DNA of 32,072 nt from Robertmurraya dakarensis (GTDB taxonomy: Bacteria > Bacillota > Bacilli > Bacillales > Cytobacillaceae), in the NCBI RefSeq assembly GCF_900156875.1, contig NZ_LT707409.1, positions 1,430,477 through 1,462,548 of the forward strand. Direction: 5' to 3'. This document shows, piece after piece, positions 1-27,256 of the stretch (positions within the stretch are counted from its first letter, which is position 1; the number at the start of each line of letters is the position of its first letter). The position numbers were made by a program, and so were the translations under genes. Under the pieces are notes generated by a model, which saw only the letters and a list, made by a program, of their open reading frames with translations, searched no databases and was not told the DNA's origin.

Positions 1-38
1 CTTCCGCCGCCAGTTATAATAACTGTTTGATTCTTCAT
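1..38 (-). CDS. short-chain dehydrogenase/reductase, N-terminus only (cut by window edge)
   Basis: Only the first 12 codons are present. Read from the ATG at 38 they give MKNQTVIITGGG, the start of a Rossmann-fold SDR: first beta strand followed by the TGxxxGxG dinucleotide-binding loop. A clear ribosome-binding site (GGAGGGG, 7 bases before the ATG) supports the start. It lies about 100 bases downstream of the MaoC gene in the same direction, so it is probably the next gene of the same cluster, although the strong hairpin at 76-128 separates them. An NAD(P)-dependent hydroxyacyl-CoA or alcohol dehydrogenase role would suit the context. The substrate cannot be judged from this fragment. Confidence 0.7.
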   Translation of the reverse strand, partial: MKNQTVIITGGG

Positions 39-75
39 AATATAACCCCTCCATTTATTTGAATTATCTAATTAT

Positions 76-128
76 TCTAACTATAGGGATGCCCGCCGTT
101 TTGGGCGGCGGGCATCCCTATAGTTAGA
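76..128. repeat. perfect 23-bp inverted repeat (GC-rich hairpin)
   Basis: Bases 76-98 and 106-128 are exact reverse complements around a 7-base loop (99-105). The core of the stem (GGGATGCCCGCCG) is far more GC-rich than the flanks, and the outer part is AT-rich. On the minus strand the 3' side is followed by AATAATTAG, not a U tract, so it is not a standard intrinsic terminator. It could act as a terminator or attenuator, an mRNA 3'-end stabiliser between the MaoC gene and the next SDR, or be a copy of a dispersed palindromic element. Confidence 0.8.
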
Positions 129-140
129 CTGCTATTTTGA

Positions 141-521
141 TTATTTTCTAATTTCGAAGTTACCTTTAACTTTGACTTCTCCAGCCTCGTTCACAGCTTC
201 TGCTTCACATACCCAGCGGTCTGCTGTTTCATCAACAACGCTGCCTCTTACTGTGATTTTTTCACCTGGTCTAGTCATCGCTCTGAAGCGGACATTAAAC
301 TTAGCAAGATCGTCTACTGAACACCATTCGCCAATTGCTTGACCAATGAATCCCATGATCATCATTCCATGTGCAATAACTCCGCCTAGGCCAGCTTCTT
401 CAGCATATGGAACAACTGTATGGATTTGATTGAAATCCCCAGAAGCGCCAGCATATTTTACTAGCTGTTGATGTGTTACTTCATCTTTTTGGATTGGTTC
501 GAATACATACCCTACATTCAT
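141..521 (-). CDS. MaoC-like (R)-specific enoyl-CoA hydratase, catalytic subunit
   Basis: This 126-residue protein has the single hot-dog fold length of a MaoC/(R)-hydratase domain. It carries the hydratase-2 signature: GDFNQIH at 29-34, with Asp29 and His34 as the expected catalytic pair, followed by the G-x-IAHG-MMIMG stretch (His51). It should add water to trans-2-enoyl-CoA to give (R)-3-hydroxyacyl-CoA. The ATG has an AGGAGG site 8 bases upstream that overlaps the stop region of the preceding gene (534-941). That gene encodes a hot-dog protein without catalytic residues, so the two probably form a heteromeric hydratase, as MaoC pairs do in steroid side-chain degradation (ChsH1-ChsH2). The family call is firm; the substrate is unknown. 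Confidence 0.85.
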   Translation of the reverse strand: MNVGYVFEPIQKDEVTHQQLVKYAGASGDFNQIHTVVPYAEEAGLGGVIAHGMMIMGFIGQAIGEWCSVDDLAKFNVRFRAMTRPGEKITVRGSVVDETADRWVCEAEAVNEAGEVKVKGNFEIRK

Positions 522-533
522 TTTTTTCGCCTC

Positions 534-941
534 CTAGTGTCTTTCGATTGTGGTTGAACGTGAAATTAATACAAGTTCGCCCTTTTCATTGTAAAATTCT
601 TTTTTTATGACAAAGAAATTCATAGCAGCTTTTGTATAAGCATTTTCAACAGATCCTTTGACTGTTAGGACATCGCCAGGATTGATTGTTCCTACATATT
701 CGTATTCCATTTCACCATGCAGGACCTTCTTCATATTAAGGTTTAATACAGCAGAAGTGTTTTGAGTTCCACCCCAGAAATCAATAACAGTTGGGAAAGT
801 TGGAGGAAGCTTTTCCCCTTTTAAATATTCTTCTTTTAAATCCCCAATTGCCAAAGCGAGCTCACGAGCTTTCACGCCTTCGACTTTAAATGTGTACGTT
901 TCTAATTGCATGCCAATTTTGTCTTGTAATGATGTACTCAC
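534..941 (-). CDS. MaoC N-terminal-like (FAS1-type dehydratase) hot-dog subunit
   Basis: About 135 residues resembling the N-terminal half of double hot-dog hydratases (MaoC_dehydrat_N/FAS1-like), with the PPTFPTVIDFWGG segment typical of that half. It lacks the Asp/His hydratase signature, so it is probably a partner that shapes the acyl-binding tunnel for the catalytic subunit at 141-521, which starts 12 bases after this stop. An in-frame GTG at 950 is possible, but it overlaps the ribosome-binding site. The GTG at 941 lies 8 bases after AAGGAG and is preferred, giving MSTSLQDK. The same two-gene arrangement is common beside thiolase/DUF35 genes, as it is here. Confidence 0.8.
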   Translation of the reverse strand: MSTSLQDKIGMQLETYTFKVEGVKARELALAIGDLKEEYLKGEKLPPTFPTVIDFWGGTQNTSAVLNLNMKKVLHGEMEYEYVGTINPGDVLTVKGSVENAYTKAAMNFFVIKKEFYNEKGELVLISRSTTIERH

Positions 942-972
942 TGGATTCACTCCTTTTTTAATTTTTTCTATA

Positions 973-2157
973 TTAAGATAATTCTTTCCCTACTACTGAT
1001 ACAAAGGAAACACATTGCATTGGTGTTCCGCCAAGGTTATGCGTTAACCCGATCTTCGGATTATCAAGCTGACGCTTGCCGGCTTTTCCTTGGAATTGAA
1101 GGTACATTTCATATAGCATTCTGAGACCGCTCGCACCGATTGGGTGTCCGAATGATTTTAATCCGCCATCAGGGTTAACAGGCAGCTGCCCAGTTAACTC
1201 GAACTTGCCATTCAAAACATCCTTCCAGCCTTGGCCGCGTTCACTGAAGCCTAAATCCTCATAGATAACCAATTCTGTTGGAGTGAAGCAGTCATGAACT
1301 TCAGCCATATGAATTTCCTTGCTAGGATCTTTAATACCAGCTTCTTTATAAGCAGCTTGAGATGCTGCAACGTTTTCTTTAATCATTGTAAAATCAAAGT
1401 CCTGACGTAAGCGTCCATCTCCAGGACCTGCAGCAATTGATAATGCTTTAACATACATTGGATCCTTACGGTATTTATGAGCATCTTCAGTACGAACGAT
1501 GATCGCTGCAGCTGCTCCATCCGCAACACCAGAACAGTCCATGATTCCAAGTGGCGCCGCAACTAATGGAGACTTATTAATAGTGTCCATAGAAACTTCA
1601 TTGCGGTATTGTGCTTTAGGATTTAATGAACCATTGTAATGGTTTTTATAAGCAATGCGAGATAAAACTTCTCTTCCTTGTTCCTCTGTTAAACCATATT
1701 TTTTATAATAAGCTGGTGCAAGGAATGAGAAGTTAGCAGGTGCTGAAATATTTGGTGCTGTTCCATCAGTTGGTACAGGTGGTCTCGTTAATCCGCTGTA
1801 CCCAGAATCCTTTAATTTTTCTACCCCTATTGCAAGTACCATGTCATAAGCACCTGAAGCGACTGCATAGCAGGCATTACGGAAAGCTTCTGACCCTGTA
1901 GCACACATGTTCTCAACTCTCGTTACTGGAATATATTGAGTCTTTAATGCACCTGAAAGTGTAATCCCTGCTAATCCAGATGCATACGTTCCTAACCATG
2001 CAGCTTCAACATCAGTCGGCTCAATTCCTGCATCATTAAAAGCTTCATAGGCAGCTTCTACTAACATATCGTCTACACTCTTGTCCCAATGTTCTGCAAA
2101 TCTTGTGCAGCCCATTCCAATAACGGCTACTTTATCACTAATTCCCTTTCTGCTCAT
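973..2157 (-). CDS. SCP2-type thiolase (acyl-CoA acetyltransferase/retro-aldolase family)
   Basis: This 394-residue thiolase-fold protein is of the SCP-x/SCP-2 type, not the classical type. The nucleophile is Cys85 in ENMCATGSE. The second motif is HDCF (288-291) in place of NEAF, GHP has His338, and the C-terminal motif is HNLGG (373-377) in place of CxG. This class cleaves 3-oxoacyl-CoAs, often with 2-methyl branches, and its relatives with DUF35 partners catalyse retro-aldol steps in sterol side-chain loss. The ATG at 2157 has GGAG 10 bases upstream. A GTG at 2166 is too close to the site. The start sits one base after the stop of the HMGCS-like/DUF35 gene, implying translational coupling and probably a physical complex. 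Confidence 0.88.
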   Translation of the reverse strand: MSRKGISDKVAVIGMGCTRFAEHWDKSVDDMLVEAAYEAFNDAGIEPTDVEAAWLGTYASGLAGITLSGALKTQYIPVTRVENMCATGSEAFRNACYAVASGAYDMVLAIGVEKLKDSGYSGLTRPPVPTDGTAPNISAPANFSFLAPAYYKKYGLTEEQGREVLSRIAYKNHYNGSLNPKAQYRNEVSMDTINKSPLVAAPLGIMDCSGVADGAAAAIIVRTEDAHKYRKDPMYVKALSIAAGPGDGRLRQDFDFTMIKENVAASQAAYKEAGIKDPSKEIHMAEVHDCFTPTELVIYEDLGFSERGQGWKDVLNGKFELTGQLPVNPDGGLKSFGHPIGASGLRMLYEMYLQFQGKAGKRQLDNPKIGLTHNLGGTPMQCVSFVSVVGKELS

Positions 2158-2158
2158 C

Positions 2159-3568
2159 TTAGACACTCTCCTTTTCCCTGATTGGCCGCGCTTTCCAGAA
2201 ATAGTTGCTGATGCCTCCAGCTTCGTATAGACGTCTGAATGTCATTTCAACATTCATGCCAATTTCGATTTCTTTTGGGCTGCAATCTGTTACTTCACAA
2301 ATGATTCGTCCGCCATTATCAAAATCTATTACCGCGACAATCGGTGGAGCCGGAGCAGCTGCAAGATGATCCAAAGTATAGGTCATAACTTTGGCAGATT
2401 GACCGACAAAGCGATAATCATCCATTTCATCCTTCGCTTGACACTGGGTACAAACCCGTTGCTTCGGAAATTGAGCTGTTCCACATTTGCGGCATTTTGA
2501 TCCAGTAAAGGAAAGATTTTGATCATATCCTCTATGCAATGCTGGTGCTGAAGGACGTTCTGTTGCTGGTCTTCTTGGCGGTTCTGTTTTTAAGATATCT
2601 CTCCACTTTAAGTAATCACTGTACAGAAGTTTATCGCTTTTAATAGATAAGTATGTTTCAACGCCTTTTCTACTCTCAAGGCTGTTAATCGCATCAGTTA
2701 CTTCAAAAAGAATAAAGTCTAATCCTTCAGCGAAATCAATCACTAATAACTGGTCTCCTGGCTTCGCAGATTCTAATGCAGAAATCAGCATCATTGGTGC
2801 ATGAGCAGTTCCTGTATCTCCGACGAAATCAAAGAGTGGATTTTGTATTTGATCCTTGCCAAAACCAAGAGCTCCCGCTGCTTGTGTATGAGCACGGTTA
2901 CCAGGTCCGGAAATAATCACTTTTGCAATCGAATCAGGTGTGCGATCATTTTTTTCTAAAAACGGTGTAATCGCTTCCCTAACTTGCTTTAAAAATACGG
3001 TAGAACCAAGACGTTCTTCCCAGTTTTGTGTAAAATCATCGCGTTGGCTGCGCCATTGGCTGACAATTTCCCCTTGCATTGTTCCAGAATCGACGATTTT
3101 TGCAACCACATCGTCACCGCTTCCAACAAGAAGGGAAGCAGCTCCGTCGCCAAACCAAAGTTCGTTCTGGCCTGTTGGCGCACCAATTCGGCAATCTGCA
3201 GCAATTACCAGAGTTTTTTCTTGAGCTTGTGCAGCCAAAATGGAAGATGTTCCACTTTTAAGAGATGCGTTTGCTTCAATTCCGCGTACGTTTTTGTTAA
3301 GTCCTAAAGCGGTTGCAATCGTTGCCATGGAACCTTTCTCTTGATAAGGTTCACTTGTCGTTGCGAAGTAAACTGCGTCTACCTCACTTGGGTTAACTCC
3401 ATTCAAACAATCAATTGCTGCTTCTACTCCCATTGATACGCTGTCTTCATCATAACCAGCAATCGCTTTCTCTCCACCAAGACCACGCTTACCATAAAAC
3501 TCAGCAATCTTGCTTCGCTGAAGGCGATTATACGGGATATATGCGCCGTATGAAATGATTCCTTTCAT
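2159..3568 (-). CDS. HMG-CoA-synthase-like domain fused to DUF35 (zinc ribbon + OB fold), active site apparently degenerate
   Basis: A 469-residue fusion. Residues 1-310 have the thiolase-like fold of archaeal-type HMG-CoA synthases, seen in TSEPYQEKG near 71-79 and in FGDGAASLL and DFVGDTGTAHAP. Residues 350-465 are DUF35: a zinc ribbon with Cys359, Cys362, Cys373 and Cys376 (CxxC-x10-CxxC), then an OB fold. In archaea a DUF35 protein bridges thiolase and HMG-CoA synthase and shares the CoA site, and here a thiolase follows immediately. The strand that should carry the nucleophile reads NASLKSGTSS (100-109) with no Cys. The usual FHxP histidine region reads ISGPGNR. It may therefore be a scaffold or a changed enzyme. 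Good ribosome-binding site (GGAG, 7 bases from the ATG). Confidence 0.85.
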   Translation of the reverse strand: MKGIISYGAYIPYNRLQRSKIAEFYGKRGLGGEKAIAGYDEDSVSMGVEAAIDCLNGVNPSEVDAVYFATTSEPYQEKGSMATIATALGLNKNVRGIEANASLKSGTSSILAAQAQEKTLVIAADCRIGAPTGQNELWFGDGAASLLVGSGDDVVAKIVDSGTMQGEIVSQWRSQRDDFTQNWEERLGSTVFLKQVREAITPFLEKNDRTPDSIAKVIISGPGNRAHTQAAGALGFGKDQIQNPLFDFVGDTGTAHAPMMLISALESAKPGDQLLVIDFAEGLDFILFEVTDAINSLESRKGVETYLSIKSDKLLYSDYLKWRDILKTEPPRRPATERPSAPALHRGYDQNLSFTGSKCRKCGTAQFPKQRVCTQCQAKDEMDDYRFVGQSAKVMTYTLDHLAAAPAPPIVAVIDFDNGGRIICEVTDCSPKEIEIGMNVEMTFRRLYEAGGISNYFWKARPIREKESV

Positions 3569-3658
3569 ATTCCTTCTCCTCTCAATTTACAATTACAAGT
3601 ATTTGAATTAAGAATAGATCTTAAAAACTTGTCCTTACCATTCTATTAGCAAAGAATA

Positions 3659-4831
3659 TTAGGCATTCACTGTTGGTGCATTTTTTAGATATTCTTTATG
3701 AAGCTGAGCAGCAATGATGTTCTTTTGAATTTCAGATGTTCCTTCATAGATTTTCGTGATTCTAGCATCACGGTAGTATCTTTCGATCGGGAACTCTCTG
3801 ATGTAGCCAATTCCGCCGTGAATTTGAACAGCTTTGTCGGCTATACGGTTATAAATCTCAGAACCTAGCAATTTAGCCATTGCCGCTTCTTTGATTACGT
3901 TCATGCCTTGGTCAACCATCCATGCAACACGGTATGTTACAGAACGTAATGTTTCAACATCTAGTGCGATCTCGGCTAAATAATGTTGAATAATTTGCTG
4001 TTCGAAAATTGGTTTTCCAAACTGCTCACGTTCATGTGCATATTTCACGGATAATTCTAATAATTTTTGACAAGAACCTAGGTTACGAGCAGCAAGTCCT
4101 GCACGTCCATTCGCAAGGATTTTCAATGCGTTAACATATCCTAAGCCTTCAACACCTAGAACGTTTTCGACTGGAACTTCACAATCTTCAAAGAAGATTT
4201 CAGATGAATGAGAACCGCGTAAGCCCATTTTTTCTTCTGTTTTTCCAACGACTAAACCTGGGAAGTTCTTTTCTACGATAAAAGAAGTGATTCCTTTTGC
4301 CCCTTTGCTTGGGTCTGTAACAGCCATGACAGTAAAGACATCGGCAATTGGACCGTTTGTAATATAATGCTTGGAACCATTAATAATGTATTTATCACCT
4401 TTACGGACAGCTTTTGTTTTAATTGCAACTGCATTTGAACCTGCACTTGGCTCAGTTAAGGCAAATGAACCGATTAAATCCCCTGCAGCCATTCCTGGTA
4501 AGTACTTTTGCTTCTGTTCTTCGTTCCCCATTTCAACGATTCCTACAGAACCGATACCAGTATGAGCTCCGATAACGGTTGTGTAACCGTTTGATGTACG
4601 GCCGATTTCTTCATAAAGGGCACATTTTCCAACCATGTCAATTCCAAGACCGCCGTACTCAGCTGGGATACTAAGTCCAAATAAGCCCATTTCTTTACTC
4701 ATTTGCATAATGTTTTCAGGGATTCTATCTTCTCTCTCGATTTGGTCTGCAACCGGGTCTACCGTATTGTCGACAAAGTCGCGAATCGTTTTCTTCATTT
4801 CAACTAATTCTTCTGATAATTTGAAATCCAT
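3659..4831 (-). CDS. acyl-CoA dehydrogenase, canonical catalytic Glu
   Basis: Full-length 390-residue FAD-dependent acyl-CoA dehydrogenase, catalysing alpha,beta-dehydrogenation of an acyl-CoA with electrons passed to ETF. Visible motifs are the LTEPSAGSNA flavin/substrate loop near 140, the IHGGIGY helix, and the C-terminal KIYEGTSEIQ whose Glu363 is the usual catalytic base (short/medium-chain type). The helix-G position used by isovaleryl and long-chain enzymes is Arg here (NGRAGLA). The start has AAAGGAG 9 bases upstream. It follows the ligase gene by 36 bases and precedes the HMGCS-like fusion by 90, so it probably catalyses the first oxidation after CoA activation in this half of the cluster. 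Acyl specificity is not readable. Confidence 0.93.
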   Translation of the reverse strand: MDFKLSEELVEMKKTIRDFVDNTVDPVADQIEREDRIPENIMQMSKEMGLFGLSIPAEYGGLGIDMVGKCALYEEIGRTSNGYTTVIGAHTGIGSVGIVEMGNEEQKQKYLPGMAAGDLIGSFALTEPSAGSNAVAIKTKAVRKGDKYIINGSKHYITNGPIADVFTVMAVTDPSKGAKGITSFIVEKNFPGLVVGKTEEKMGLRGSHSSEIFFEDCEVPVENVLGVEGLGYVNALKILANGRAGLAARNLGSCQKLLELSVKYAHEREQFGKPIFEQQIIQHYLAEIALDVETLRSVTYRVAWMVDQGMNVIKEAAMAKLLGSEIYNRIADKAVQIHGGIGYIREFPIERYYRDARITKIYEGTSEIQKNIIAAQLHKEYLKNAPTVNA

Positions 4832-4867
4832 GTTGTAACACTCCTTTAAATAGTTAAGTCATTTATA

Positions 4868-6418
4868 TTAAGCATTTTGCTTTGATGAAAATTCTTCAAC
4901 TAGCTGCCGTCTTAAAATTTTTCCTACAATCGTTTTTGGCAGTTCTTCTCTGAATTCAATACCTCTAGGGATTTTATATCTTGCCATCTTGTCTTGACAC
5001 CAATCTAGCAATTCTTCTACTGTTAGGGTGGCTCCTGCTTTTAAAATAACAACCGCTAACAGCTTTTCTCCTAGATATGAATCAGGAACCCCAAACACAC
5101 ATGCCTCTGCTATCGCTGGATGCTGATAAAGTACTTCTTCTACTTCTGCAGGGTAGATATTCAATCCGCCTGCAATGACCATATCCTTTTTTCTTCCAAC
5201 AATATAGTAATAACCGTCCTCATCTTTTGTAGCAATGTCACCAGTGTAAAGCCAGCCGTCGCGAATGGCTTCCGCAGTTTCAACTGGTTTCTTCCAGTAT
5301 CCTTTCATAACCTGCGGACCTCTAATGATCAATTCACCGCTTTCACCGGTCGGCATCTCATCAATGCCATTCTCGATATCAACGATTTTCGCCTCTGTTC
5401 CAGGAATCGGCATACCCACACTGCCAATTTTTCTTACTCCGCCTAATGGAGTTCGATGAGTAGAAGTGGTTCCTTCAGATAGCCCATACCCTTCAAAAAT
5501 AAGAGCCCCTGTTTTTTGTTCTAATTCCTTGATGACTTCTACCGGAAGTGGAGCCGATCCAGAAAGACAAATCTTAAAGCATGATAAATCATATTGTGCT
5601 AATTCAGGATGATTCAATATGGCGATATACATAGTCGGTGAACCCAGGAAGTAAGTTGGTCTGTATTTTGCAACCAGTCCGAGTACTTTGGTTGCGTCGA
5701 ATTTCTCCAAAATGATATATGTAGCTGCATTCAACACCGTGTAATTCATATTTGTCATCGCCATCGCATGGGTTAGCGGAGCAACTCCTAAAATTCTCTC
5801 TGATGCTTTTTCAATTACACTAGCAAAAACACTTCCCATTTGATGGATATTTGAGAGAATATTAAAATGCGTTAGCATCGCACCTTTTGATCTGCCTGTT
5901 GTACCGCCCGTATACTGAAGAACGGCTACATCTTCTTTTGCATCAATCTCAATAACTGGCAGCTCTGTTACCATCTTCATGGATATCAGCTGGTTTTGGT
6001 CCTTTTCGTCTTTTGTAAAAATGACATTAATATTGGCAAATTGATCAATCTTACTGAATTTTTCCGCTTGATGCGGGTGGCAGACAAACCATTTAGGTGA
6101 GGCATCGTCAATGATGTATTCTAGTTCAGACGTTTGATACAAAGGATTCACTTGAACAACCGTTCCACCTAAACGCTGAGCTGCATAATAGGAAATGACA
6201 TAGTCAACTCCATTCGGCAGCATTAGACCAATTCGGTCACCTTTTTGAAAGCCTTTACTAAATAGGACGGATGCGAACGCATCGACCGTATCCTTCAATT
6301 GCTGATAGGTTAACTGGATTGAACCGTCAATGACAGCAAGATGATCATGATGTTCCTTGGCGGTTGTTTCTAACAATCTATAAATAGAGCTACGTGATAA
6401 ATATTCAAAATCGATCAC
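4868..6418 (-). CDS. AMP-forming acyl-CoA ligase (fatty-acid/aryl-CoA synthetase family)
   Basis: A 516-residue ANL-superfamily enzyme that activates a carboxylic acid to acyl-AMP and then acyl-CoA. Motifs: P-loop YTGGTTGRSKG (169-179), GYGLSEGTT, the hinge region YTGDIATKDEDGYY then GRKKDMVIAGG, and the C-terminal catalytic Lys500 in IVGKILRR. The GTG start at 6418 is supported by AAAGGAGG 7 bases upstream. It starts 15 bases after the stop of the AMACR-like gene (6434-7537), a spacing that suggests linked function: activation and stereochemical correction of the same branched acid. It differs clearly from the paralogous pair at 19397 and 28520. Substrate unknown. Confidence 0.92.
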   Translation of the reverse strand: MIDFEYLSRSSIYRLLETTAKEHHDHLAVIDGSIQLTYQQLKDTVDAFASVLFSKGFQKGDRIGLMLPNGVDYVISYYAAQRLGGTVVQVNPLYQTSELEYIIDDASPKWFVCHPHQAEKFSKIDQFANINVIFTKDEKDQNQLISMKMVTELPVIEIDAKEDVAVLQYTGGTTGRSKGAMLTHFNILSNIHQMGSVFASVIEKASERILGVAPLTHAMAMTNMNYTVLNAATYIILEKFDATKVLGLVAKYRPTYFLGSPTMYIAILNHPELAQYDLSCFKICLSGSAPLPVEVIKELEQKTGALIFEGYGLSEGTTSTHRTPLGGVRKIGSVGMPIPGTEAKIVDIENGIDEMPTGESGELIIRGPQVMKGYWKKPVETAEAIRDGWLYTGDIATKDEDGYYYIVGRKKDMVIAGGLNIYPAEVEEVLYQHPAIAEACVFGVPDSYLGEKLLAVVILKAGATLTVEELLDWCQDKMARYKIPRGIEFREELPKTIVGKILRRQLVEEFSSKQNA

Positions 6419-6433
6419 TGTTTTTCCTCCTTT

Positions 6434-7537
6434 CTAATAGACTTTATTTTCATATTTTTCTTTAAATTCTACAGTGTGCTGTCCAAGTCCAGGTGGTACA
6501 CTGTGTGTTTTAATATCCTGAGCTGGTGAGAATCTAGTAGATATTTGGCGGATCCCATCTTTTTCGACAATCATTTCACGTTCTGTAAATAATGGCTGCT
6601 GGTGTACTTCGCTAGTTTCAAGTACAGGTGCTAAACAGCAATCTACTTCCTGCGCGAACTTCGTCCATTCCTCAAGGGTTCTGCTGGAAAACATATCTTT
6701 CAATTCTTCAAAAACAGGATTATTCGGCTCAGCCAAGGAGAAATGGTCTGGGATCCAGCTTAATTTATTTAAAGCTGTGCATAAATTCGTCCAAAACTTT
6801 GGCTCCAAAGCTCCTAAACTAACATATCTTCCATCTTTTGTTTCATAGATGTAATAACACACATGCTTATTATTCAATCTCGGTATTCCGTGTTCTTCTC
6901 CCGTTATGCTTTCATGTACAACATGATTGGACATTAACGAAAGCAACGTATCCGTAATCGATAGATCAATATAAGAACCTTCACCCGTACGCAGTTTTTT
7001 CACCAATGCAGCTAGAATTGCTTCTGAAGCTGAAATACCTCCAACAAAATCTGCAATCGTTGTACTTGGCTGCACAGGACGACCAGTTTGATCCTTAAAT
7101 TGTGCCAATGTTCCACTCCAAGACAAGTAATTGATATCATGTCCTCCTAATTGGCTTAACGGGCCGGTTTGACCATAACCTGACAGAGAGCAATAAATAA
7201 TATCTTCCTTGACTTTGATAACATCTTCATAAGAGATTCCCAGCCGGGCGACGACTCCAGGGCGAAATCCTTCGAGCACAACATCCGCATCGCGAATTAA
7301 GTTTAATGCGATTTGTCTGTCATCTTCTTCTTTTAAATTCAAGACGATGCTTTTTTTATTACGGTTTTGGGTATTAAAAACTAATCCATCGCCTTTTTTA
7401 TTAGTGGAAGGCCGCGATGGGTCTCCTTGAGGAGATTCCACTTTAATGACTTCGGCACCCATATCCACTAATCTTAACGTTGCATGCGGACCAGGTAGAT
7501 ATTGGGAAAAATCAAGTATACGAATTCCTTCAAGCAC
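6434..7537 (-). CDS. alpha-methylacyl-CoA racemase-like protein (CaiB/BaiF family)
   Basis: A 367-residue CaiB/BaiF-fold protein. It has the three residues used by alpha-methylacyl-CoA racemase: His133 in GHDINY, Asp163 in IADFVGG and Glu245 in GALEPKFW. Spacings are 30 and 82 residues, close to those in human and mycobacterial AMACR/MCR as I recall them (30 and 85). True formyl-CoA-type transferases keep the Asp but not the GHDINY His. It should therefore epimerise 2-methylacyl-CoA so that a stereospecific dehydrogenase can act, although CoA transfer cannot be excluded. The GTG start has only a modest GGGGA site. It lies between the MFE-2-like SDR and the ligase. Confidence 0.82.
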   Translation of the reverse strand: MLEGIRILDFSQYLPGPHATLRLVDMGAEVIKVESPQGDPSRPSTNKKGDGLVFNTQNRNKKSIVLNLKEEDDRQIALNLIRDADVVLEGFRPGVVARLGISYEDVIKVKEDIIYCSLSGYGQTGPLSQLGGHDINYLSWSGTLAQFKDQTGRPVQPSTTIADFVGGISASEAILAALVKKLRTGEGSYIDLSITDTLLSLMSNHVVHESITGEEHGIPRLNNKHVCYYIYETKDGRYVSLGALEPKFWTNLCTALNKLSWIPDHFSLAEPNNPVFEELKDMFSSRTLEEWTKFAQEVDCCLAPVLETSEVHQQPLFTEREMIVEKDGIRQISTRFSPAQDIKTHSVPPGLGQHTVEFKEKYENKVY

Positions 7538-7604
7538 AAAGCATTCCCCATTTCTGACTTTCTAATATTCTGTACATGCAGCAACTAAGGCTCCATTAAA
7601 TGTG

Positions 7605-7641
7605 TATATAAGCAATCAGTCATGAACTGATTGCTTATATA
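7605..7641 (-). terminator. 16-bp perfect hairpin after the MFE-2-like SDR gene
   Basis: Arms 7605-7620 and 7626-7641 are exact reverse complements with a 5-base loop. It lies 20 bases after the SDR stop on the minus strand. The distal side continues as CACATTTAATGG rather than a run of T, so termination may be partial. It could alternatively be a processing or stabilising stem between the SDR and AMACR-like genes. Confidence 0.5.
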
Positions 7642-7660
7642 GCGAGATTATTAATATCTA

Positions 7661-8572
7661 TTAAACTAGCGGCTCATAAGGGAAAACATCTTTACTTACT
7701 TCAAGTGGAGTAAAGCTGCTTTGTAATGCAGATTTAATGTTAGCAATGCTGTCAACAGACCAGCCTTCTGAATTGTAAACAGAGCGTACTGGACGAGGTT
7801 GAGAGAATACGAACATTTCTTTTCCTCTTACACCAAAGATTTGTCCTGTTACATCGCTAGCCTGTTCAGAAGCTAAGAACGCAACGATTGGTGCGATATG
7901 AGCTGGTGACATTTGTTTCATTTTTTCAACACGTGCTTGTTCACTCTCGTCGTTTGTTGGAATTGTTCCAATTAGACGGCTCCAAGCAAATGGTGCGATC
8001 GCATTAGCTGTTACTCCATAACGAGACATATCTAACGCTGTGCTCTTTGTTAGTCCCCAAATACCCATTTTTGCTGCTGAGTAGTTTGCTTGACCAAAGT
8101 TACCAATTAATCCAGAAGTTGAAGTGAAGTTAATGAAACGTCCGCTTCCTTGCTCTTTGAAAATTGGTGCAGCTTGTCTTGTCATATTGAATGAACCTTT
8201 TAAGTGTACAGAAATTACAGAATCAAATTCTGCTTCAGTCATTCTGTGTAGAATACGGTCTCTTAAAATACCAGCATTGTTAACAACGATATCTAAGCGG
8301 CCAAATGCATCAATCGCTGTTTGAACAATCTTACCAGCAGCTTCATACTCAGATACTGAATCATAATTAGCAACAGCTTCGCCGCCAGCAGCCTTGATTT
8401 CAGCTACAACTTCATCTGCAACCTTTGTATCATTACCTTCACCGTCAGAGCTTCCGCCTAAATCGTTAACTACTACTTTAGCTCCTTCTTTAGCTAGCAA
8501 TAATGCGATTTCTCTTCCAATTCCACGTCCAGAACCTGTAACAATAGCGACTTTGTCTTGTAAATTTGTCAT
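7661..8572 (-). CDS. MFE-2/17beta-HSD4-like (3R)-hydroxyacyl-CoA dehydrogenase (SDR)
   Basis: A 303-residue SDR. It has the nucleotide-binding TGSGRGIG (12-19), the VVVNDLGGS segment and NNAGILRDR characteristic of the dehydrogenase domain of peroxisomal multifunctional enzyme 2, and the catalytic set Ser151, Tyr164 and Lys168 in NYSAAK within the NFGQANYSAAK stretch. It should oxidise (3R)-hydroxyacyl-CoA to 3-oxoacyl-CoA with NAD+, matching the stereochemistry made by MaoC hydratases in the same cluster. The tail of about 60 residues after the SDR core is also typical of the MFE-2 type. Its own promoter is possible (8610-8638), since the gap to the upstream gene is 130 bases. The ribosome-binding site is AAAGG, 9-10 bases from the ATG. 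Confidence 0.9.
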   Translation of the reverse strand: MTNLQDKVAIVTGSGRGIGREIALLLAKEGAKVVVNDLGGSSDGEGNDTKVADEVVAEIKAAGGEAVANYDSVSEYEAAGKIVQTAIDAFGRLDIVVNNAGILRDRILHRMTEAEFDSVISVHLKGSFNMTRQAAPIFKEQGSGRFINFTSTSGLIGNFGQANYSAAKMGIWGLTKSTALDMSRYGVTANAIAPFAWSRLIGTIPTNDESEQARVEKMKQMSPAHIAPIVAFLASEQASDVTGQIFGVRGKEMFVFSQPRPVRSVYNSEGWSVDSIANIKSALQSSFTPLEVSKDVFPYEPLV

Positions 8573-8702: not shown

Positions 8703-9887
8703 TTAGATAGCACCTGCGTCTTTTAATGCTTGAATCTGCTCGTCCGTATACCCTAATCCGTTTAAAACATCATTTGTATGCTCGCCTAGCAGCGGAGGGT
8801 AATACCGGACTTGTGCAGGTGTTTCTGAAAGCTTTACTGGAAAACCAGGAACTTTCAAGTTTTCGACATTTGGATGCGGGATCTCAATCATCATTTCCCT
8901 TGCTTCTATTTGTGGGTGATTGAGAACTTGATCGATTGTATGGATCGGTCCGCATGGTACTCCTGCTTCTTCCATTTTTTCAAAAATATCTTTGCTTTCC
9001 AATGTGATCAAACGATCTGAAAGTATTGCTATTAATTCATCACGATTTGCAACGCGATTATCGTTTGTCGTAAATTTTGCATCTTCGAGCAGATCATGCC
9101 AGCCAAATGCCTCACAGCATTTTTTCCAAAGACCATCGTTTGCTACAGCAAGGATGAAATCCATATCCTTGGCTCTAAACGCTTGGTACGGAACAATCGA
9201 TGGATGAGCTGAGCCCATTCTCCCTGCTGGTTTTCCTGTTGCCATATAACCTGTTGCCATGTGATTAAGCAGGGTTACTTGCCCATCGAGCAAGCTTACA
9301 TCTACAAATTGTCCTTTTCCGGTTCTTTGTGCAGCAAATAATGCACTTAAGATCCCATATACCGCAAACATTCCTGTCGTTAAGTCTGCGATAGACATAC
9401 CCGCTTTTGCCGGGCTCCGGTCAGGCTCTCCCGTAATGCTCATTAATCCGCCAAAACCTTGCAGCAGTAAATCGTAGCCAGCTCTATCCTTTTCAGGACC
9501 TGTTCTGCCAAAACCGGAAATTGAACAATAGACGAGACGCGGATTGATTTCCTTCATCTTTTCATATCCATAACCTAGTCGATCCATTGTCCCGGTCCGA
9601 TAGTTTTCAACCAGGATATCGGCATCTGCGGCTAGTTTATAGATGATTTCTCTGCCTTTTTCGCTTTTCAGATCAACTGTAATACTTCTCTTATTACGAT
9701 TTGACGTAAGGAAGTAGCAGCTTTCACCATTCCATGTAGGAGGAGTGAACCTTCTAGACTCGTCTCCCTTTCCAGGCTGTTCCACCTTGATTACATCTGC
9801 TCCCTGATCACCAAGAAGCATCGTACAAAATGGACCAGCGAGTGTTCTGGATAGGTCAAGTACTTTAACCCCTTCTAAAGACTGCAT
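8703..9887 (-). CDS. CaiB/BaiF family (class III) CoA-transferase
   Basis: A 394-residue formyl-CoA-transferase-like protein. The N-terminal VLDLSRTLAGPFCTMLLGD, the central SGFGRTGP and the expected catalytic Asp168 in SIADLTTG are present. Unlike the other two family members in this window, the racemase His is absent: the GHDINY position reads AGYDLL with Tyr138. It is therefore the best candidate for a real CoA-transferase moving CoA from a donor thioester, such as succinyl-CoA, to a carboxylic acid. AAGGAG lies 10 bases before the ATG. It follows the family I CoA-transferase by 54 bases. Donor and acceptor are not readable. Confidence 0.85.
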   Translation of the reverse strand: MQSLEGVKVLDLSRTLAGPFCTMLLGDQGADVIKVEQPGKGDESRRFTPPTWNGESCYFLTSNRNKRSITVDLKSEKGREIIYKLAADADILVENYRTGTMDRLGYGYEKMKEINPRLVYCSISGFGRTGPEKDRAGYDLLLQGFGGLMSITGEPDRSPAKAGMSIADLTTGMFAVYGILSALFAAQRTGKGQFVDVSLLDGQVTLLNHMATGYMATGKPAGRMGSAHPSIVPYQAFRAKDMDFILAVANDGLWKKCCEAFGWHDLLEDAKFTTNDNRVANRDELIAILSDRLITLESKDIFEKMEEAGVPCGPIHTIDQVLNHPQIEAREMMIEIPHPNVENLKVPGFPVKLSETPAQVRYYPPLLGEHTNDVLNGLGYTDEQIQALKDAGAI

Positions 9888-9941
9888 GCAATATCTTCTC
9901 CTTATGAATTATTTCCAGGTGTATAGGATATTCTTTTTTTA

Positions 9942-11231
9942 TTACACGGATAAAGCGCTGTTAAACTGTGCTCTTAAATCCTCACGGAAATCCGGATGAG
10001 CAATCGCAACTAACTCCTCGGCACGTTCCCTAAGCGACTTCCCAAATAAAGAAGCAATTCCATATTCAGTAACGACATAATCAATTTCTGTCTTAACTGA
10101 AGTAATGTATGGTACCTTCGCTTTTATTCTTGACTCTGCGCCTCTTCTCGCAGTGGAAGGAAGGGCAATAATCGCTTTGCCGCCTTTAGAAAGTCGAGCT
10201 CCGCGAATAAAGTCCATTTGACCGCCAACACCTGCAACAGGATAAGTGCCGACTTGTTCCGCATTGATTTGACCAGATAAATCTACTTCTAATGCCGAGT
10301 TAACAGAAATGAAGTTACTTAATTTCGCGATAACAGCAGCATTATGGGTATAATCTGATTGATATAATTCAATGTTTTTATTGTTGTTCGTGTATTGATA
10401 AAGTGCGTCAGTACCTGTCATCGTCGTACAAATCGTTTTATACTGATCAATTTCTTTATGCTCGTTCGTTATTACACCGAGATCCATTAGATCTGTCACA
10501 GCATCTGTAATCGATCCAGAATGGCAGCCAAGCCCTTTTTTTGACTTTAATGATAATAAAACGGCATCCGCAATTTTTCCAAGTCCTACTTGAATATTGG
10601 CATAATCAGGAATGAGCTCCGCTACATAACTTCCAATCTTCATTTCCAGCTCCGATGGCGTACCGCTGAAAAGTGTCAATAGCGGGCGATTTGAGACGAC
10701 GAAAGTATCAATCTCTGAAACATGTACAAGTGTATCCCCAAAGGTACGTGGCAGTTCATCATTCACTTGGGCAATAACAAAATTAGCGTTCTTAATCAAA
10801 GCTTGTACGGTATCAACTGAAATCCCAAGATTGCAATAGCCCTCACTATTAGGCGGTGACACTTGAACAAGAGCGATATCTATCTTTTCCTGCCTTACCC
10901 AGCGAGGCATATCTGAAAGGTTTACCGGTAAGTAATCACAAACATTGTTTATGTAAGCACTTTTCAAGGCCCCGGATCCTAAGAATGTACGGATCTTAAA
11001 GTGTTCATGACAAGAAGGATCTGCATATACACATGGACTGCCAACTACAGCATTGTAGATCGTGACATCCTCAAGTCGGTTCTTTTGTGCAACAAGTTCT
11101 TCAACTAGCGTTTGCGGCTCATTGCAATATGGTGCAAGAAATACTTTTTGGTGCGACTGGACTGCAGCCATTGCTTCGCTAGCACTTTTTAGCCGGGAAT
11201 CATAAATGCTTTCCCAATCTTTCGTAGTCAT
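9942..11231 (-). CDS. acetyl-CoA hydrolase/4-hydroxybutyrate CoA-transferase family protein (class I), atypical catalytic loop
   Basis: A protein of about 429 residues with the two-domain fold of acetate/butyrate/4-hydroxybutyrate CoA-transferases. Recognisable pieces are VSPPNSEGYCNLGISVD, QVGLGKIADAVL, NSALEVDLSGQINAEQVG and GGQMDFIRGA. In well-studied members the catalytic Glu lies in an HTEM- or HSEM-like loop. Here the loop reads LGCHSGSITDAV, with Gly239 at that position, so the mechanism may differ or a subfamily variant is present. Acetoacetate or acetate CoA exchange would fit the thiolase and HMG-CoA lyase nearby. The ATG at 11231 is chosen because GGAGGT lies 9 bases upstream. A longer frame back to a GTG at 11294 has no such site. 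Confidence 0.85.
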   Translation of the reverse strand: MTTKDWESIYDSRLKSASEAMAAVQSHQKVFLAPYCNEPQTLVEELVAQKNRLEDVTIYNAVVGSPCVYADPSCHEHFKIRTFLGSGALKSAYINNVCDYLPVNLSDMPRWVRQEKIDIALVQVSPPNSEGYCNLGISVDTVQALIKNANFVIAQVNDELPRTFGDTLVHVSEIDTFVVSNRPLLTLFSGTPSELEMKIGSYVAELIPDYANIQVGLGKIADAVLLSLKSKKGLGCHSGSITDAVTDLMDLGVITNEHKEIDQYKTICTTMTGTDALYQYTNNNKNIELYQSDYTHNAAVIAKLSNFISVNSALEVDLSGQINAEQVGTYPVAGVGGQMDFIRGARLSKGGKAIIALPSTARRGAESRIKAKVPYITSVKTEIDYVVTEYGIASLFGKSLRERAEELVAIAHPDFREDLRAQFNSALSV

Positions 11232-11315
11232 ACTGGATTCACCTCCGCCTATTATGTAGGATTCAAGTGCATGCGAGCCGCTGCCGGCATACACCTGAAA
11301 TATTAAAATTGAAAA

Positions 11316-12540: not shown

Positions 12541-13401
12541 TCAGACTTTACTTGATAGACTTTTGGCAAAAGGAGTAATTTTTGTCAGTTCGTTGTAGTC
12601 AACTTCGGTCTTAATGCCCATTCTTGAAACCATATTTAACAGATCTTCTGTAGATAGATTCCCAGTAGCGCCTGGAGAGTAAGGACAGCCGCCAAGACCG
12701 CCTACCGAACTATCAAACTTTGTAATACCTGCTTGCATGGCTGCCACGACATTGGCCAGCGCCATTTTCTCAGTATCATGGAAATGACCGACAAACGAAG
12801 TATCTGGATATAAAACTCTTAATCTAGCTAATCTTTCATAGACGATTTTCGGATCTGCCTGTCCGTTTGTGTCACCAACATCAATCTCGTCTGCACCAAG
12901 TTCTACGAAGCGGTCGCAGACATATTTGACCTCGTCAAAAGAAACATCACCTTGGAACGGACATTTAAACGCCATGGAAATATAGGCACGGATAAAAATA
13001 TCCTCTTTTTTGGCTCTTTCAAACATCGGCACGCACTCGTCTAATGATTCAGAAGTAGTTTTGTTAATATTCTTTTTATTAAATGTATTACTTGCTCCTA
13101 TAAACACAGCGATTTGTGGTGCTTTTGCTGCTATTGCCCGTTCGAGTGCCTTAAGATTTGGTGTTAAGGCAATGTACGTGATTCCGAGCTCATTACAGTA
13201 GCTGGATATTTCTTCACAATCAGCCATTTGCGGAACCCATTTCGGATGCACAAATGATGTCGTTTCCATGCGGGAAAACCCAGCCTTTGCCAACTGGCTG
13301 ATTAACTTTTTCTTGTCTTCTGTTGAAATAGGCAGCGGTTCATTTTGTAATCCATCACGAGGACCAACCTCTATGATTTCTATTTCCTTTGGTATAAACA
13401 A
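12541..13401 (-). CDS. hydroxymethylglutaryl-CoA lyase
   Basis: A 286-residue TIM-barrel lyase that cleaves (S)-HMG-CoA to acetyl-CoA and acetoacetate. Signatures: VGPRDGLQNE (12-21, with Arg15 and Asp16 at the active site), SFVHPKWVPQMAD, the metal-binding HFH (206-208) and the conserved loop GGLGGCPYSPGATGN with catalytic Cys239. It closely resembles Bacillus subtilis YngG as recalled, with a C-terminus about a dozen residues shorter. The start is TTG at 13401, 8 bases after a GGGGG site. No methylcrotonyl-CoA carboxylase gene is present here, unlike leucine-degradation clusters, which points to another source of methylglutaconyl- or HMG-CoA. HMG-like substrates such as 2-methyl homologues remain possible. 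Confidence 0.9.
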   Translation of the reverse strand: MFIPKEIEIIEVGPRDGLQNEPLPISTEDKKKLISQLAKAGFSRMETTSFVHPKWVPQMADCEEISSYCNELGITYIALTPNLKALERAIAAKAPQIAVFIGASNTFNKKNINKTTSESLDECVPMFERAKKEDIFIRAYISMAFKCPFQGDVSFDEVKYVCDRFVELGADEIDVGDTNGQADPKIVYERLARLRVLYPDTSFVGHFHDTEKMALANVVAAMQAGITKFDSSVGGLGGCPYSPGATGNLSTEDLLNMVSRMGIKTEVDYNELTKITPFAKSLSSKV

Positions 13402-14620: not shown

Positions 14621-15397
14621 TTAATTAAAGTTAGGTTTACGCTTTTCAAAAAAGGCTTTTACCCCTTCTTTAAAATCGGCTGACTCAAAACACATCGCTT
14701 GTGCAAATCCTTCTAACTCTAAAGACTCATCAAATTCAGAGAAAACGGATCTGTTCACTAATTTTTTCATTAAACCAAGGGCCATCTTCGGTCCTTCTGC
14801 AAGCTGACCGGCTAATTTATAAACTTCTTCAAGCAGAAGTTCGTCTTCCACAACTCGATTAACCAAACCAATACTTTGTGCTTGTTCTGCAGAAACTCGA
14901 TCTCCAAAGAACATTAATTCTAATGCGCGATTGCGTCCAATTAATCTTGGTAAAAAGTACATTGACCCTAGATCCGGAACTAACCCTACTTTTGCAAAGC
15001 TTTGAATGAAGAAGCTTGATTTACCAGCAACGACTATATCACAGGCTAACGCTAAGCTGACACCAGCACCCGCTGCCGCTCCATTTACAGCTGCAATAAC
15101 GGGCTTCTCCAATTCAACAATCGCCTTAATCATTTCATGTCCAGATTGCAATCTTTTTCTGCCGGAAACAGCATCCATCTCCGTTAAGGCGCTAAGGTCG
15201 CCTCCAGCTGAAAACGCTTTCCCTTCCCCCGTTAGCACGATCACCTTGACTTCATCATTATTTTTTGCTTCATTCAAAAAGTCTCTAATTTCTTCACGCA
15301 ATTCTAAACCAAGGGCATTTCTGACCTCAGGGCGATTTAATTTAACCGTACAAACTCCATTTTCTGTAGTTGTAACTTGAATATTTTGGTAGGCCAT
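14621..15397 (-). CDS. crotonase-fold enoyl-CoA isomerase-like protein (PaaG/ECI type)
   Basis: A 258-residue crotonase with the oxyanion-hole segments FSAGGDLS (62-69) and GAAAGAGVSLALACD. The two hydratase glutamates are not conserved: the first position is Ser114 and the second falls in SFAKVGL. The loop GLVPDLG supplies Asp142, the residue used by PaaG and delta3-delta2 enoyl-CoA isomerases. It therefore more likely shifts or isomerises a double bond than hydrates one. The ATG has a near-perfect AAAGGAGGTG 8 bases upstream. It lies between an AUH-like hydratase and a dehydrogenase, where an isomerase could rescue wrongly placed double bonds in branched acyl-CoAs. Confidence 0.82.
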   Translation of the reverse strand: MAYQNIQVTTTENGVCTVKLNRPEVRNALGLELREEIRDFLNEAKNNDEVKVIVLTGEGKAFSAGGDLSALTEMDAVSGRKRLQSGHEMIKAIVELEKPVIAAVNGAAAGAGVSLALACDIVVAGKSSFFIQSFAKVGLVPDLGSMYFLPRLIGRNRALELMFFGDRVSAEQAQSIGLVNRVVEDELLLEEVYKLAGQLAEGPKMALGLMKKLVNRSVFSEFDESLELEGFAQAMCFESADFKEGVKAFFEKRKPNFN

Positions 15398-15422
15398 CTA
15401 TGTGCCACCTCCTTTCAATGAA

Positions 15423-16205
15423 TTATTTTCCAATAAATTGCGGGTCGCGCTTTTCCACAAAGGCACGAACACCTTCAAGTCGATCTTCTGTATTGATGCA
15501 GCGGTTGTAGTAGCTTATTTCAACCTTCTTTGCATCATCATTAGGCATACCGAACAGCTCATTTACAGATGATTTACAATTTTGTACAGCTAATGGTGCG
15601 TTTTTAGCAATTTTCTCTGCGATTTCAAGCGCTTTTTCACGGATATCACTTGATGTTCCGTAAGCATTGAGGAGTCCTGCTTTTTCTGCCTCTTCACCTG
15701 TAACAATCTTACCTGTAGTAACCCATTCTTTTGCACGGTGAACACCAATCCACTTTGACAAAAGCCTTGTTCCGCCGCCGCCAGGCATTATTCCTCTTGT
15801 TACTTCCGGAAGTCCGAATTTAGCTGTATCCGCCGCAACGATCATGTCGCAGTTCAAGACAATTTCAAATCCTCCAGCAAGTGCAAAACCATCGACAACC
15901 GCAATGACCGGCTGCTTCATATCCTGGATTTGATTAAACATTTTTTGGAATAGAAGGTGTTGATTTTTCCATTCTTCTTCTGTCATATTGTTGCGTTCTT
16001 TTAGATCTGCTCCAGAGCAAAAGGCCTTCTCTGTTGAAGAAGTAATTAATACTGTTCTGATATCACTAGCGTCTATTTCACGGCAAATCCCAAGAATTTG
16101 CTCAGCCATTTCAGTTGTGAAAGCATTCCGAGCTTCTGGACGATTCAAGGTGATTTCTGCAATAGTAGATTCTTTCCCTACTCTTTTCCATTCTACAAGA
16201 GCCAT
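15423..16205 (-). CDS. enoyl-CoA hydratase, AUH/methylglutaconyl-CoA hydratase-like
   Basis: A 260-residue crotonase with both catalytic glutamates, Glu114 (GGFEIVL) and Glu134 (LPEVTRG). It also carries FCSGADLKER (62-71) and the C-terminal EDRLEGVRAFVEKR-type ending, both hallmarks of the AUH group whose human member hydrates 3-methylglutaconyl-CoA to HMG-CoA. With HMG-CoA lyase two genes further on, that reaction is the most economical guess, although AUH-like proteins in bacilli are broad. The ATG at 16205 is preferred (AAAGGA 9 bases upstream). Upstream in-frame TTG 16223 and ATG 16214 are badly spaced from that site. Confidence 0.85.
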   Translation of the reverse strand: MALVEWKRVGKESTIAEITLNRPEARNAFTTEMAEQILGICREIDASDIRTVLITSSTEKAFCSGADLKERNNMTEEEWKNQHLLFQKMFNQIQDMKQPVIAVVDGFALAGGFEIVLNCDMIVAADTAKFGLPEVTRGIMPGGGGTRLLSKWIGVHRAKEWVTTGKIVTGEEAEKAGLLNAYGTSSDIREKALEIAEKIAKNAPLAVQNCKSSVNELFGMPNDDAKKVEISYYNRCINTEDRLEGVRAFVEKRDPQFIGK

Positions 16206-16264
16206 TACGGTCATTCCTTTCAATACAAGCTCATTAATTTGATAGATTAGTATATTGGTAATTT

Positions 16265-17464: not shown

Positions 17465-17526
17465 TGTTTTTCCCCTTCCTGATAATAATGTCATATAATA
17501 ATTGATTAAGAAAAATATTATTCTAG

Positions 17527-17555: not shown

Positions 17556-18338
17556 TTAAAAATTACGAAGTCTTCTGCTGATTTCCTCTGATGCTTGCTT
17601 AAGATAGATTCCCTTCGTATGCAGGTCCTCTTTCTCATATTGCGACGCAAATCCGATTAATTCGACAGATAATTCAACTCTTTCATCGTTGGTGAAGATT
17701 GGAGCTGCAATCCCGCATAGACCTTTAATATATTCTCCGTAGGTTATGTAGTAGCCGTTTTTTCTAATTTTGTCTATTTCCCCTTCTATAAAAAGAATTT
17801 CTTCATCTGTGAAAGATTTTAATCCGCGATCCTGTTTGAGGAAATACTCTCGTTCCGTTTTTTCCATATATGCTAGAAAGCACATCCCGAAAGATCCGTC
17901 TGTAATGGAAAAATGTCTTCCAACCGAAACGCTGACTCCAAAATCGTTTGCTTCTACTTTTGCTACAATGGCTAACTTTTCTTCACCTATCTTGTTGACA
18001 AGAATTGACGTCATTCCGGTTTGCTTCGTTAACTCTTCAAGATATGGCATAATAGTAGTAATGTAATTCAAGTGCTCTTTGGCTCTCTCACCTAAGACAA
18101 CAAGATAAGGACCGAGTGTGTACCTTTTCTTGTCCTCTATGTAGCGAACGATTGATAGTCCCTCCAAACTTTGTAGTATCCTGTAGCAAGTTGCTGGATT
18201 CAACGACAAAGCGTTCGCGATCTCTGTAACTGTACTTTCCTGGAACCGCTTTCGGCTAAGAAGTTTTAGAATGGCAAAAGCGTTTTCCAATGCTGGCACA
18301 GAATACTTCCGCTTTTCCTTCGTCTTTTGATTTTCCAT
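17556..18338 (-). CDS. IclR-family transcriptional regulator
   Basis: A 260-residue regulator. The N-terminal winged helix-turn-helix is at about 15-75 (NAFAILKLLS, then TVTEIANALSLNPATCYRIL). It is followed by the IclR effector-binding domain, with GMTSILVNK and the GLCGIAAPIF segment near 205-215. IclR proteins bind as dimers to palindromes near promoters and respond to small acids or their CoA esters, often regulating the adjacent catabolic operon. The ATG at 18338 has an AAGAGGTG site 6 bases upstream. A GTG at 18347 is part of that site. Promoter 18360-18388 gives a leader of only about 15 bases. It heads the co-directional run down to the left edge, so it is the obvious local regulator. 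Confidence 0.93.
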   Translation of the reverse strand: MENQKTKEKRKYSVPALENAFAILKLLSRKRFQESTVTEIANALSLNPATCYRILQSLEGLSIVRYIEDKKRYTLGPYLVVLGERAKEHLNYITTIMPYLEELTKQTGMTSILVNKIGEEKLAIVAKVEANDFGVSVSVGRHFSITDGSFGMCFLAYMEKTEREYFLKQDRGLKSFTDEEILFIEGEIDKIRKNGYYITYGEYIKGLCGIAAPIFTNDERVELSVELIGFASQYEKEDLHTKGIYLKQASEEISRRLRNF

Positions 18339-18359
18339 AATTGACACCTCTTGATGATT

Positions 18360-27240: not shown

Positions 27241-27256
27241 AATTCCTGTTCCTCCC

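Follow-up and report, generated by a model that had tools for sequence, protein, structure and literature searches.

A candidate D-specific beta-oxidation cluster in Robertmurraya dakarensis in which a thiolase adjoins an apparently non-catalytic HMG-CoA synthase-DUF35 fusion

The gene cluster and its layout

The DNA considered here (the window) is a stretch of 32,072 nucleotides from Robertmurraya dakarensis (C11:1430477-1462548, within a 5.48 Mb genome), at one end of which a listing of open reading frames places eight minus-strand genes (141-8572) separated by intergenic gaps of no more than ~120 bp. From low to high coordinates, they are predicted to encode the catalytic (141-521) and non-catalytic (534-950) subunits of a MaoC hydratase, a thiolase (973-2166), a fusion of a domain resembling 3-hydroxy-3-methylglutaryl-CoA (HMG-CoA) synthase with DUF35 (2159-3568), an acyl-CoA dehydrogenase (3659-4831), an acyl-CoA ligase (4868-6418), an AMACR-like racemase (6434-7537), and an MFE-2-like dehydrogenase (7661-8572). 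The thiolase and fusion genes overlap by 8 bp. A first-pass annotation, made from the letters alone, had described these genes as a peroxisome-like, D-specific beta-oxidation set dedicated to branched-chain acids; its open reading frames are present on the minus strand where it placed them, and Pfam assigns each of them its expected domain. As argued below, the genes may together carry 2-methyl-branched acyl-CoAs through a complete round of D-specific beta-oxidation, with the thiolase held by a partner that appears to have lost its own catalytic residues.

Dehydrogenase, hydratase, and racemase

That 7661-8572 encodes an MFE-2/17beta-HSD4-like dehydrogenase, predicted to act on (3R)-hydroxyacyl-CoAs, was confirmed in two ways. 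The top solved relatives of this short-chain dehydrogenase/reductase (SDR) are the MFE-2 enzymes 2et6, 3oml, and 1zbq, and in a tree of 53 proteins it lies within a 13-member clade that holds the human, fly, and yeast-type (2et6) MFE-2 (support 0.999), with SDRs from more distant clusters forming the neighboring clade (joint support 0.847). The protein is a single domain of 303 amino acids; the multidomain build of MFE-2 was not found, and the hydratase lies on separate genes. A second set of related genes stands ~0.4 Mb away (L109, 9554-13315) and comprises an acyl-CoA dehydrogenase (72% identity), an MFE-2-like SDR (91% to that of the window), and a ligase (73%).

The proposal of a two-subunit MaoC hydratase likewise agrees with both motif and domain content. 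The product of 141-521 (maocB; PF01575, 67.3 bits) carries the hydratase motif as GDFNQIH, and the motif occurs in 22/22 maocB proteins and in none of 19 maocA proteins. The maocA product of the window (534-950) scores above the cut-offs for the FAS1_DH_region (PF13452, 60.8 bits) and for the N-terminal domain of MFE-2 hydratase 2 (PF22622, 28.1 bits against 27), and has no solved relative at E 1e-3. The pair thus resembles hydratase 2 split into its halves. Three other loci (L056-L058) carry a longer MaoC protein (281-326 amino acids) between an MFE-2-type SDR and the fusion.

Runs of N bound the window on both sides, and the sequence at its left edge duplicates the end of the neighboring contig: positions 1-1822 match 17933-19754 of L009 at 1822/1822 readable bases, after which 246 N precede the start of the window. 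Given this identity at the contig ends and the intervening N, an apparent maocB/maocA tandem duplication next to the window was rejected; it is probably an unmerged contig overlap.

The racemase (6434-7537) has the MCR of Mycobacterium tuberculosis as its closest solved relative (1x74, E 4e-53). The equivalents of MCR residues His126, Asp156, and Glu241, which we take to be the catalytic residues of AMACR, are all present in this protein and in 10 cluster homologues labeled AMACR, while SUGCT and two SUGCT-like neighbors have Tyr/Asp/Asn at these positions. In a tree of 31 family III proteins, rooted on SUGCT and leaving aside C11:1379713, one of ten family III genes of this genome, the 18 proteins with His/Asp/Glu, MCR among them, form one clade (support 0.874), and the remaining 13 have neither the His nor the Glu.

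Thiolase and its apparently non-catalytic partner

The annotated SCP2-type thiolase with an adjacent DUF35 fusion was correct as to the thiolase and the adjacency, and needed revision in two respects: SCP2 thiolases are not its nearest relatives, and DUF35 is fused not to the thiolase but to a domain like HMG-CoA synthase, the apparent lack of catalytic residues in which had been missed. The thiolase (973-2166) matches PRK06157 at 617.7 bits (cut-off 403), and the catalytic set, present here as NMCATG, HDCF, and GHP, is intact in 32/32 thiolases, that of the window included. Its nearest solved relatives, 4yzo, 7yvy, and 6esq_A (198-202 bits), rank ahead of the SCP2 thiolase 6hsj (157 bits); by this ranking of solved structures, the protein, SCP2-type and at the same time like archaeal acetoacetyl-CoA thiolases, is closer to thiolases of the archaeal type (one of these works with DUF35) than to the SCP2 thiolases. 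Pfam matched no SCP2 lipid-binding domain in it. HDCF is the thiolase form of the motif, the aldolase forms being YDHF in Ltp2 and YDCY in Sal (excerpt of PMC12329534). A steroid side-chain aldolase of the Ltp2/Sal kind was rejected, as all 32 proteins have HDCF and neither aldolase motif.

The fusion (2159-3568) consists of an archaeal-type HMG-CoA-synthase-like domain followed by the zinc ribbon and OB fold of DUF35, for which the Pfam families zf-ChsH2 and OB_ChsH2_C exceed their cut-offs. The zinc cysteines C359, C362, C373, and C376 are invariant in 21 aligned sequences. In contrast, the synthase residues Glu82, Cys114, and His238 (6esq numbering, with the position of His238 taken from the alignment) are all replaced in 31/31 fusions and likewise in L069, L078 having been excluded from the count as a split open reading frame; two unfused relatives (L040 and L041) have lost the Glu and Cys and kept the His. 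That the fusion might nevertheless be a working HMG-CoA synthase, the pair then making mevalonate precursors as a PRK04262 annotation would suggest, draws on several observations: its best solved relative is the archaeal HMG-CoA synthase 6esq_I, with thiolase and DUF35 the archaeal set of three is complete, and nothing in the genome matches HMG_CoA_synt_N above the cut-off, the only other synthase-like match, on C10, falling just below it (24.3 against 25 bits). However, besides the replaced residues, PRK04262, the best NCBIfam match of the fusion, scores 189.6 bits against a cut-off of 244, and other acyl-CoA catabolism genes adjoin the fusion in 31/32 loci (all but L024). A synthase function was rejected for the loss of the catalytic residues and is almost certainly wrong.

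Further proteins of the SCP2 type occur in the surrounding ~125-kb region, which is rich in acyl-CoA genes. At 9632-11180, L009 carries another SCP2-like protein; it is accompanied by a DUF35-like partner of its own, lacks the catalytic Cys, and has the motif YDSF, nearer the aldolase/SLP form. Two more SCP2-type/DUF35-like pairs lie at 15388-16980 of L110 and 16822-18411 of L111.

Distribution and conserved gene neighborhoods

Homologues of the fusion are scarce. They were found in 8/193 genomes of the family (E 1e-20) and, at E 1e-40, in 15/398 sampled genomes of the phylum and 11/398 of the class, each count including the genome of the window; none was found in the six other genomes of the genus, two of which have a completeness of only 80-81%. 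The carriers known by name are Mesobacillus harenae, Peribacillus asahii, Bacillus sp. BA3, Cytobacillus purgationiresistens, and Neobacillus citreus. A close SDR (E 1e-100) and a close fusion are limited to the same 6/193 family genomes, a co-occurrence with a chance probability of 1.5e-11 by bare counting that ignores kinship among the genomes. The thiolase adjoins the fusion in all 32 loci compared, and both this pairing and the co-occurrence exceed chance. The 32-locus set omits G381 and G522, congeners of G253 in whose 4.4-kb loci (L034, L035) the two genes are also neighbors, the second copies in G444, G535, and G610 (L040, L041, L069), and L042, L045, and L046, which represent the same places as G091, G050, and G102.

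Within 10 kb and on the same strand, at least 20 of these loci have MaoC (a 21st, L056, appears at a looser cut-off), at least 24 an MFE-2-type or sister SDR (one weak, L025), at least 14 a gene with the AMACR triad, and at least 4 a 3-hydroxyacyl-CoA dehydrogenase (3HCDH), counts that are lower bounds, the stretches of the window, L049, L055, L057, and L075 spanning less than 13 kb. The order fusion-thiolase-dehydrogenase-MaoC-MaoC-SDR-racemase is common to L071, L072, L073, L079, and L080, and L074 has the same order with extra genes, so that six distant loci share it in full, racemase included. A sigma-54 activator with CBS/PAS domains (Pfam) stands near the cluster in L022, L073, and L079.

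Several observations from these and other comparisons weigh against a dedicated D-specific route for branched acids. Among the eight close loci, in which the fusion is 73-100% identical, a close AMACR is found in the cluster in five; in the remaining three, the only triad protein is a more distant one ~9-13 kb away. One of the eight (L022) has no MaoC pair in the stretch examined, L044 has the sister-type SDR only, and in L020 and L021 a crotonase (71-73%) adjoins the ligase within the cluster. Only an SDR accompanies the module in L076-L078 (plus a ligase in L078), and only a transferase in L024. AMACR-like proteins are present in 129/193 family genomes (E 1e-60) and are common without the cluster; the closer grouping of the racemase with MCR has a weak support of 0.512; two crotonases, L-type hydratases, share the window with the D-specific set (14621-16223); no profile match indicates a preference of the acyl-CoA dehydrogenase or ligase for chain length or branching; and an AlphaFold model of the fusion, built with six close sequences, is poor (mean pLDDT 47.6).

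Another set of loci (L049, L051, and L054) joins the thiolase module to 3HCDH and crotonase, with no MaoC or SDR, and is an L-specific counterpart of the cluster; L051 adds to its 3HCDH set a gene with the AMACR triad as well as CoA-transferase subunits. Because these three loci use 3HCDH, one of them alongside such a gene, neither the module nor the racemase is bound to D-specific enzymes, and the joining of a racemase-type gene with an L-specific set in L051 slightly weakens the case for a dedicated D-specific route. A broader proposal is that this bacterial thiolase family always works with a dead HMG-CoA synthase-DUF35 protein, the pseudoenzyme serving as a scaffold or CoA tether for the cleavage of alpha-branched 3-ketoacyl-CoAs, and that the module was then joined in different Bacillota to D-specific enzymes (MaoC and an MFE-2-like SDR, often with the racemase) or to L-specific ones (crotonase and 3HCDH). 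This generalization is tentative, and we hold it with rather less than even confidence.

The widespread occurrence of AMACR-like genes without the cluster, and the three close loci that lack a close AMACR beside the module, would also suit a pathway in which (R)-specific enzymes oxidize ordinary straight-chain fatty acids and the AMACR-like gene is a bystander. A bystander is difficult to reconcile with a triad gene in the same-strand neighborhood of 14 of the 32 loci and with one gene order in six distant ones, and the rarity of the fusion in the family is unlike housekeeping fatty-acid oxidation, making this explanation improbable.

Proposed pathway and substrate

The favored interpretation, to which we give somewhat better than even confidence, is that the cluster encodes a complete round of D-specific beta-oxidation, acting on 2-methyl-branched acyl-CoAs, with the thiolase held by a non-catalytic HMG-CoA synthase-DUF35 scaffold. 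The ligase would form the CoA ester, and the racemase would interconvert its (2R) and (2S) forms so that a stereoselective dehydrogenase could use both. The acyl-CoA dehydrogenase would then form the 2-enoyl-CoA, and the MaoC pair would hydrate this product to the (3R)-hydroxy ester. Oxidation of the latter by the MFE-2-like SDR would give the 2-methyl-3-keto ester, which the thiolase would cleave to propionyl-CoA and a shortened acyl-CoA. Beyond the window, the gene series goes on into a 2,4-dienoyl-CoA reductase (PRK07677, 401 bits, cut-off 318), which might handle double bonds. The fused partner, its HMG-CoA synthase domain incapable of catalysis, may hold and complete the thiolase, the zinc-ribbon/OB domain of DUF35 bridging that domain to the thiolase and perhaps helping to bind CoA. 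The domains, the catalytic residues kept or lost, the clades, the conserved order, and the co-occurrence are observed; the substrate, the actual stereochemistry, and the assembly of thiolase and partner are predictions from them.

A complete D-specific cycle is well supported as a prediction from residues, a tree, and conserved neighborhoods, and this part of the earlier claim of a dedicated branched-chain route stands. For the substrate, 2-methyl-branched acids are the best single guess, being the class that the racemase triad, the MFE-2-type enzymes, and the SCP2-type thiolase would fit; the suggested pristanate, isoprenoids, or sterol side chains are conjectural as substrates. The best match to HsaA, the only gene of aerobic sterol ring degradation that was searched, reached 88.5 bits against a cut-off of 450, and the rubber-degrading Lcp had no match at E 1e-3; ring degradation through HsaA and rubber degradation through Lcp were rejected on these grounds. 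Because neither gene was found and no sequence feature names a substrate, no natural substrate can be named. A search for Rieske proteins gave six matches.

Degradation of sterol or bile-acid side chains as in Actinobacteria, with ring breakdown elsewhere, would account for the enzyme types, as the actinobacterial route also has a MaoC heteromer, an Hsd4A-like SDR, a thiolase, and propionyl-CoA release (excerpt of PMC6678751). Against it stand the HsaA result and a thiolase motif that differs from that of the Ltp2/Sal aldolases, and it appears very unlikely.

D-specific beta-oxidation could also be directed at alicyclic or aryl-substituted acids, such as naphthenic or phenylpropanoid acids, whose alpha carbon lies in a ring or bears a non-methyl group. 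The surrounding 125 kb, rich in ligases, acyl-CoA dehydrogenases, SDRs, and further SCP2/DUF35 pairs, with nearby transporters that by eye are of the TRAP type, fits a diet of varied organic acids, and BbsAB, a thiolase with a DUF35 partner, acts on an alpha-branched aromatic substrate. The racemase, however, is AMACR-type by its residues, and the dehydrogenase falls far below the cut-offs of ring-acid enzyme profiles (289 against 650 and 196 against 575 bits), so that such substrates seem unlikely.

Breakdown of methyl-branched acids is known mainly from actinobacteria and peroxisomes, and the cluster gives the Bacillota a defined, testable candidate for it. The analysis also brings to light a set of proteins that NCBIfam matches best to HMG-CoA synthase, yet 0/31 of them retain the residues needed for that reaction, and the combination of a thiolase with a conserved dead partner offers a direct way to ask what DUF35 and HMG-CoA-synthase-like subunits do for thiolases.

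Other genes of the window and its surroundings

The remaining members of the cluster are less informative. The acyl-CoA dehydrogenase (3659-4831; PF00441, PF02771, and PF02770) has 23 NCBIfam matches, none over its own cut-off, and the FadD-type ligase (4868-6418; PF00501, 311.6 bits) has none over the cut-off among the best 25 of 108.

Next to the cluster, and like all the genes of this paragraph on the minus strand, lies a SUGCT-like family III CoA-transferase (8703-9887), in which the triad positions are Tyr/Asp/Asn (Tyr/Asp/Asp in a small alignment) and which, judged by these residues, is not a racemase. A CoA-transferase of the acetyl-CoA hydrolase/transferase family follows (9942-11294; PF13336), homologues of which adjoin the SDR in G102 and G127 (68%) and lie one gene away in Mesobacillus harenae (74%). 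The two crotonase-type hydratases (14621-15397 and 15423-16223; PF00378), outside the core, qualify the statement that no L-specific hydroxyacyl-CoA dehydrogenase is seen: it holds for the window, where none of the 19 whole-genome matches to PF02737 lies (the nearest over the cut-off is ~50 kb off), and yet L-type hydratases are present. A second protein with the AMACR triad (16265-17494) has SUGCT as its best solved relative and MCR as the second, despite the triad. The gene at 17556-18347, by eye an IclR-type regulator, has no NCBIfam match at 1e-30; its homologues in the clusters of G102 and G127 stand at 75-76%.

The window also contains a protein of the HMG-CoA lyase family (12541-13401; PRK05692, 361 bits, cut-off 246) beside thiolase and dehydrogenase genes, and, at 26035-28312, an acyl-CoA dehydrogenase adjoining a phosphotransferase-like protein (named by eye), a pair that to us recalls ACAD10/11. 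It ends in a 52-bp tandem repeat of 7.4 copies (31686-32072), and L010 begins with 3497 N, its first readable bases carrying the same repeat unit. In L009, a protein at 3-1208 resembles, by eye, the squalene-hopene-cyclase type.

Comparison with known systems

The peroxisomal AMACR/MFE-2/SCPx system has counterparts here in the racemase triad, the MFE-2-clade dehydrogenase, the hydratase-2-type hydratase, and the SCP2-family thiolase. It differs in that the enzymes of the cluster are encoded by separate genes, with a dehydrogenase in place of the oxidase, and that the thiolase, with no SCP2 lipid-binding domain among its Pfam matches, stands beside a pseudo-HMG-CoA synthase-DUF35 fusion. Mcr is also part of the actinobacterial cholesterol side-chain set. 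That system (ChsH1-ChsH2/Hsd4A/FadA5/Ltp2-DUF35) shares with the cluster separate genes, a MaoC heteromer, an Hsd4A-type SDR, a thiolase, and propionyl-CoA release in side-chain beta-oxidation (excerpt of PMC6678751), so that the label "peroxisome-like" is too narrow. In the actinobacterial system, DUF35 is joined to a MaoC subunit and assists an aldolase (excerpt of PMC8399759), whereas here it is fused to an HMG-CoA-synthase-like domain beside a true thiolase, and HsaA was not found. Gordonia no longer grows on polyisoprene and related methyl-branched isoprenoids once a racemase gene is lost (cited in PMC9108482, excerpt).

For the proposed assembly of thiolase and fusion, the precedents are the archaeal complex of acetoacetyl-CoA thiolase, HMG-CoA synthase, and DUF35 (6esq) and PhlABC. 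The three parts of the former are homologous to those of the cluster and are their best or near-best solved relatives; here, in contrast, the synthase residues are lost, synthase and DUF35 are fused, and the setting is catabolic. PhlABC, a Friedel-Crafts acylase, combines a thiolase-like catalytic subunit, DUF35, and the HMG-CoA-synthase-like PhlA, from which the same Cys and Glu are missing and whose presumed role is in assembly (excerpt of PMC6392133); there, PhlA and PhlB are separate, and the substrates are phloroglucinols, with no CoA. The benzoylsuccinyl-CoA thiolase BbsAB resembles the cluster in its thiolase and DUF35 partner and is a distant match (155.1 bits, cut-off 750). BbsAB is not known to contain an HMG-CoA-synthase-like domain.

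Among the matches listed in a search of open-licence literature, nothing concerned this Bacillota cluster or an HMG-CoA synthase-DUF35 fusion with lost residues. An enzyme combination of this kind is already described for the breakdown of sterol side chains in actinobacteria (excerpt of PMC6678751). What looks new is its occurrence in the Bacillota and the fact that a thiolase with intact catalytic residues is constantly paired with an HMG-CoA synthase-DUF35 fusion that has lost its own.

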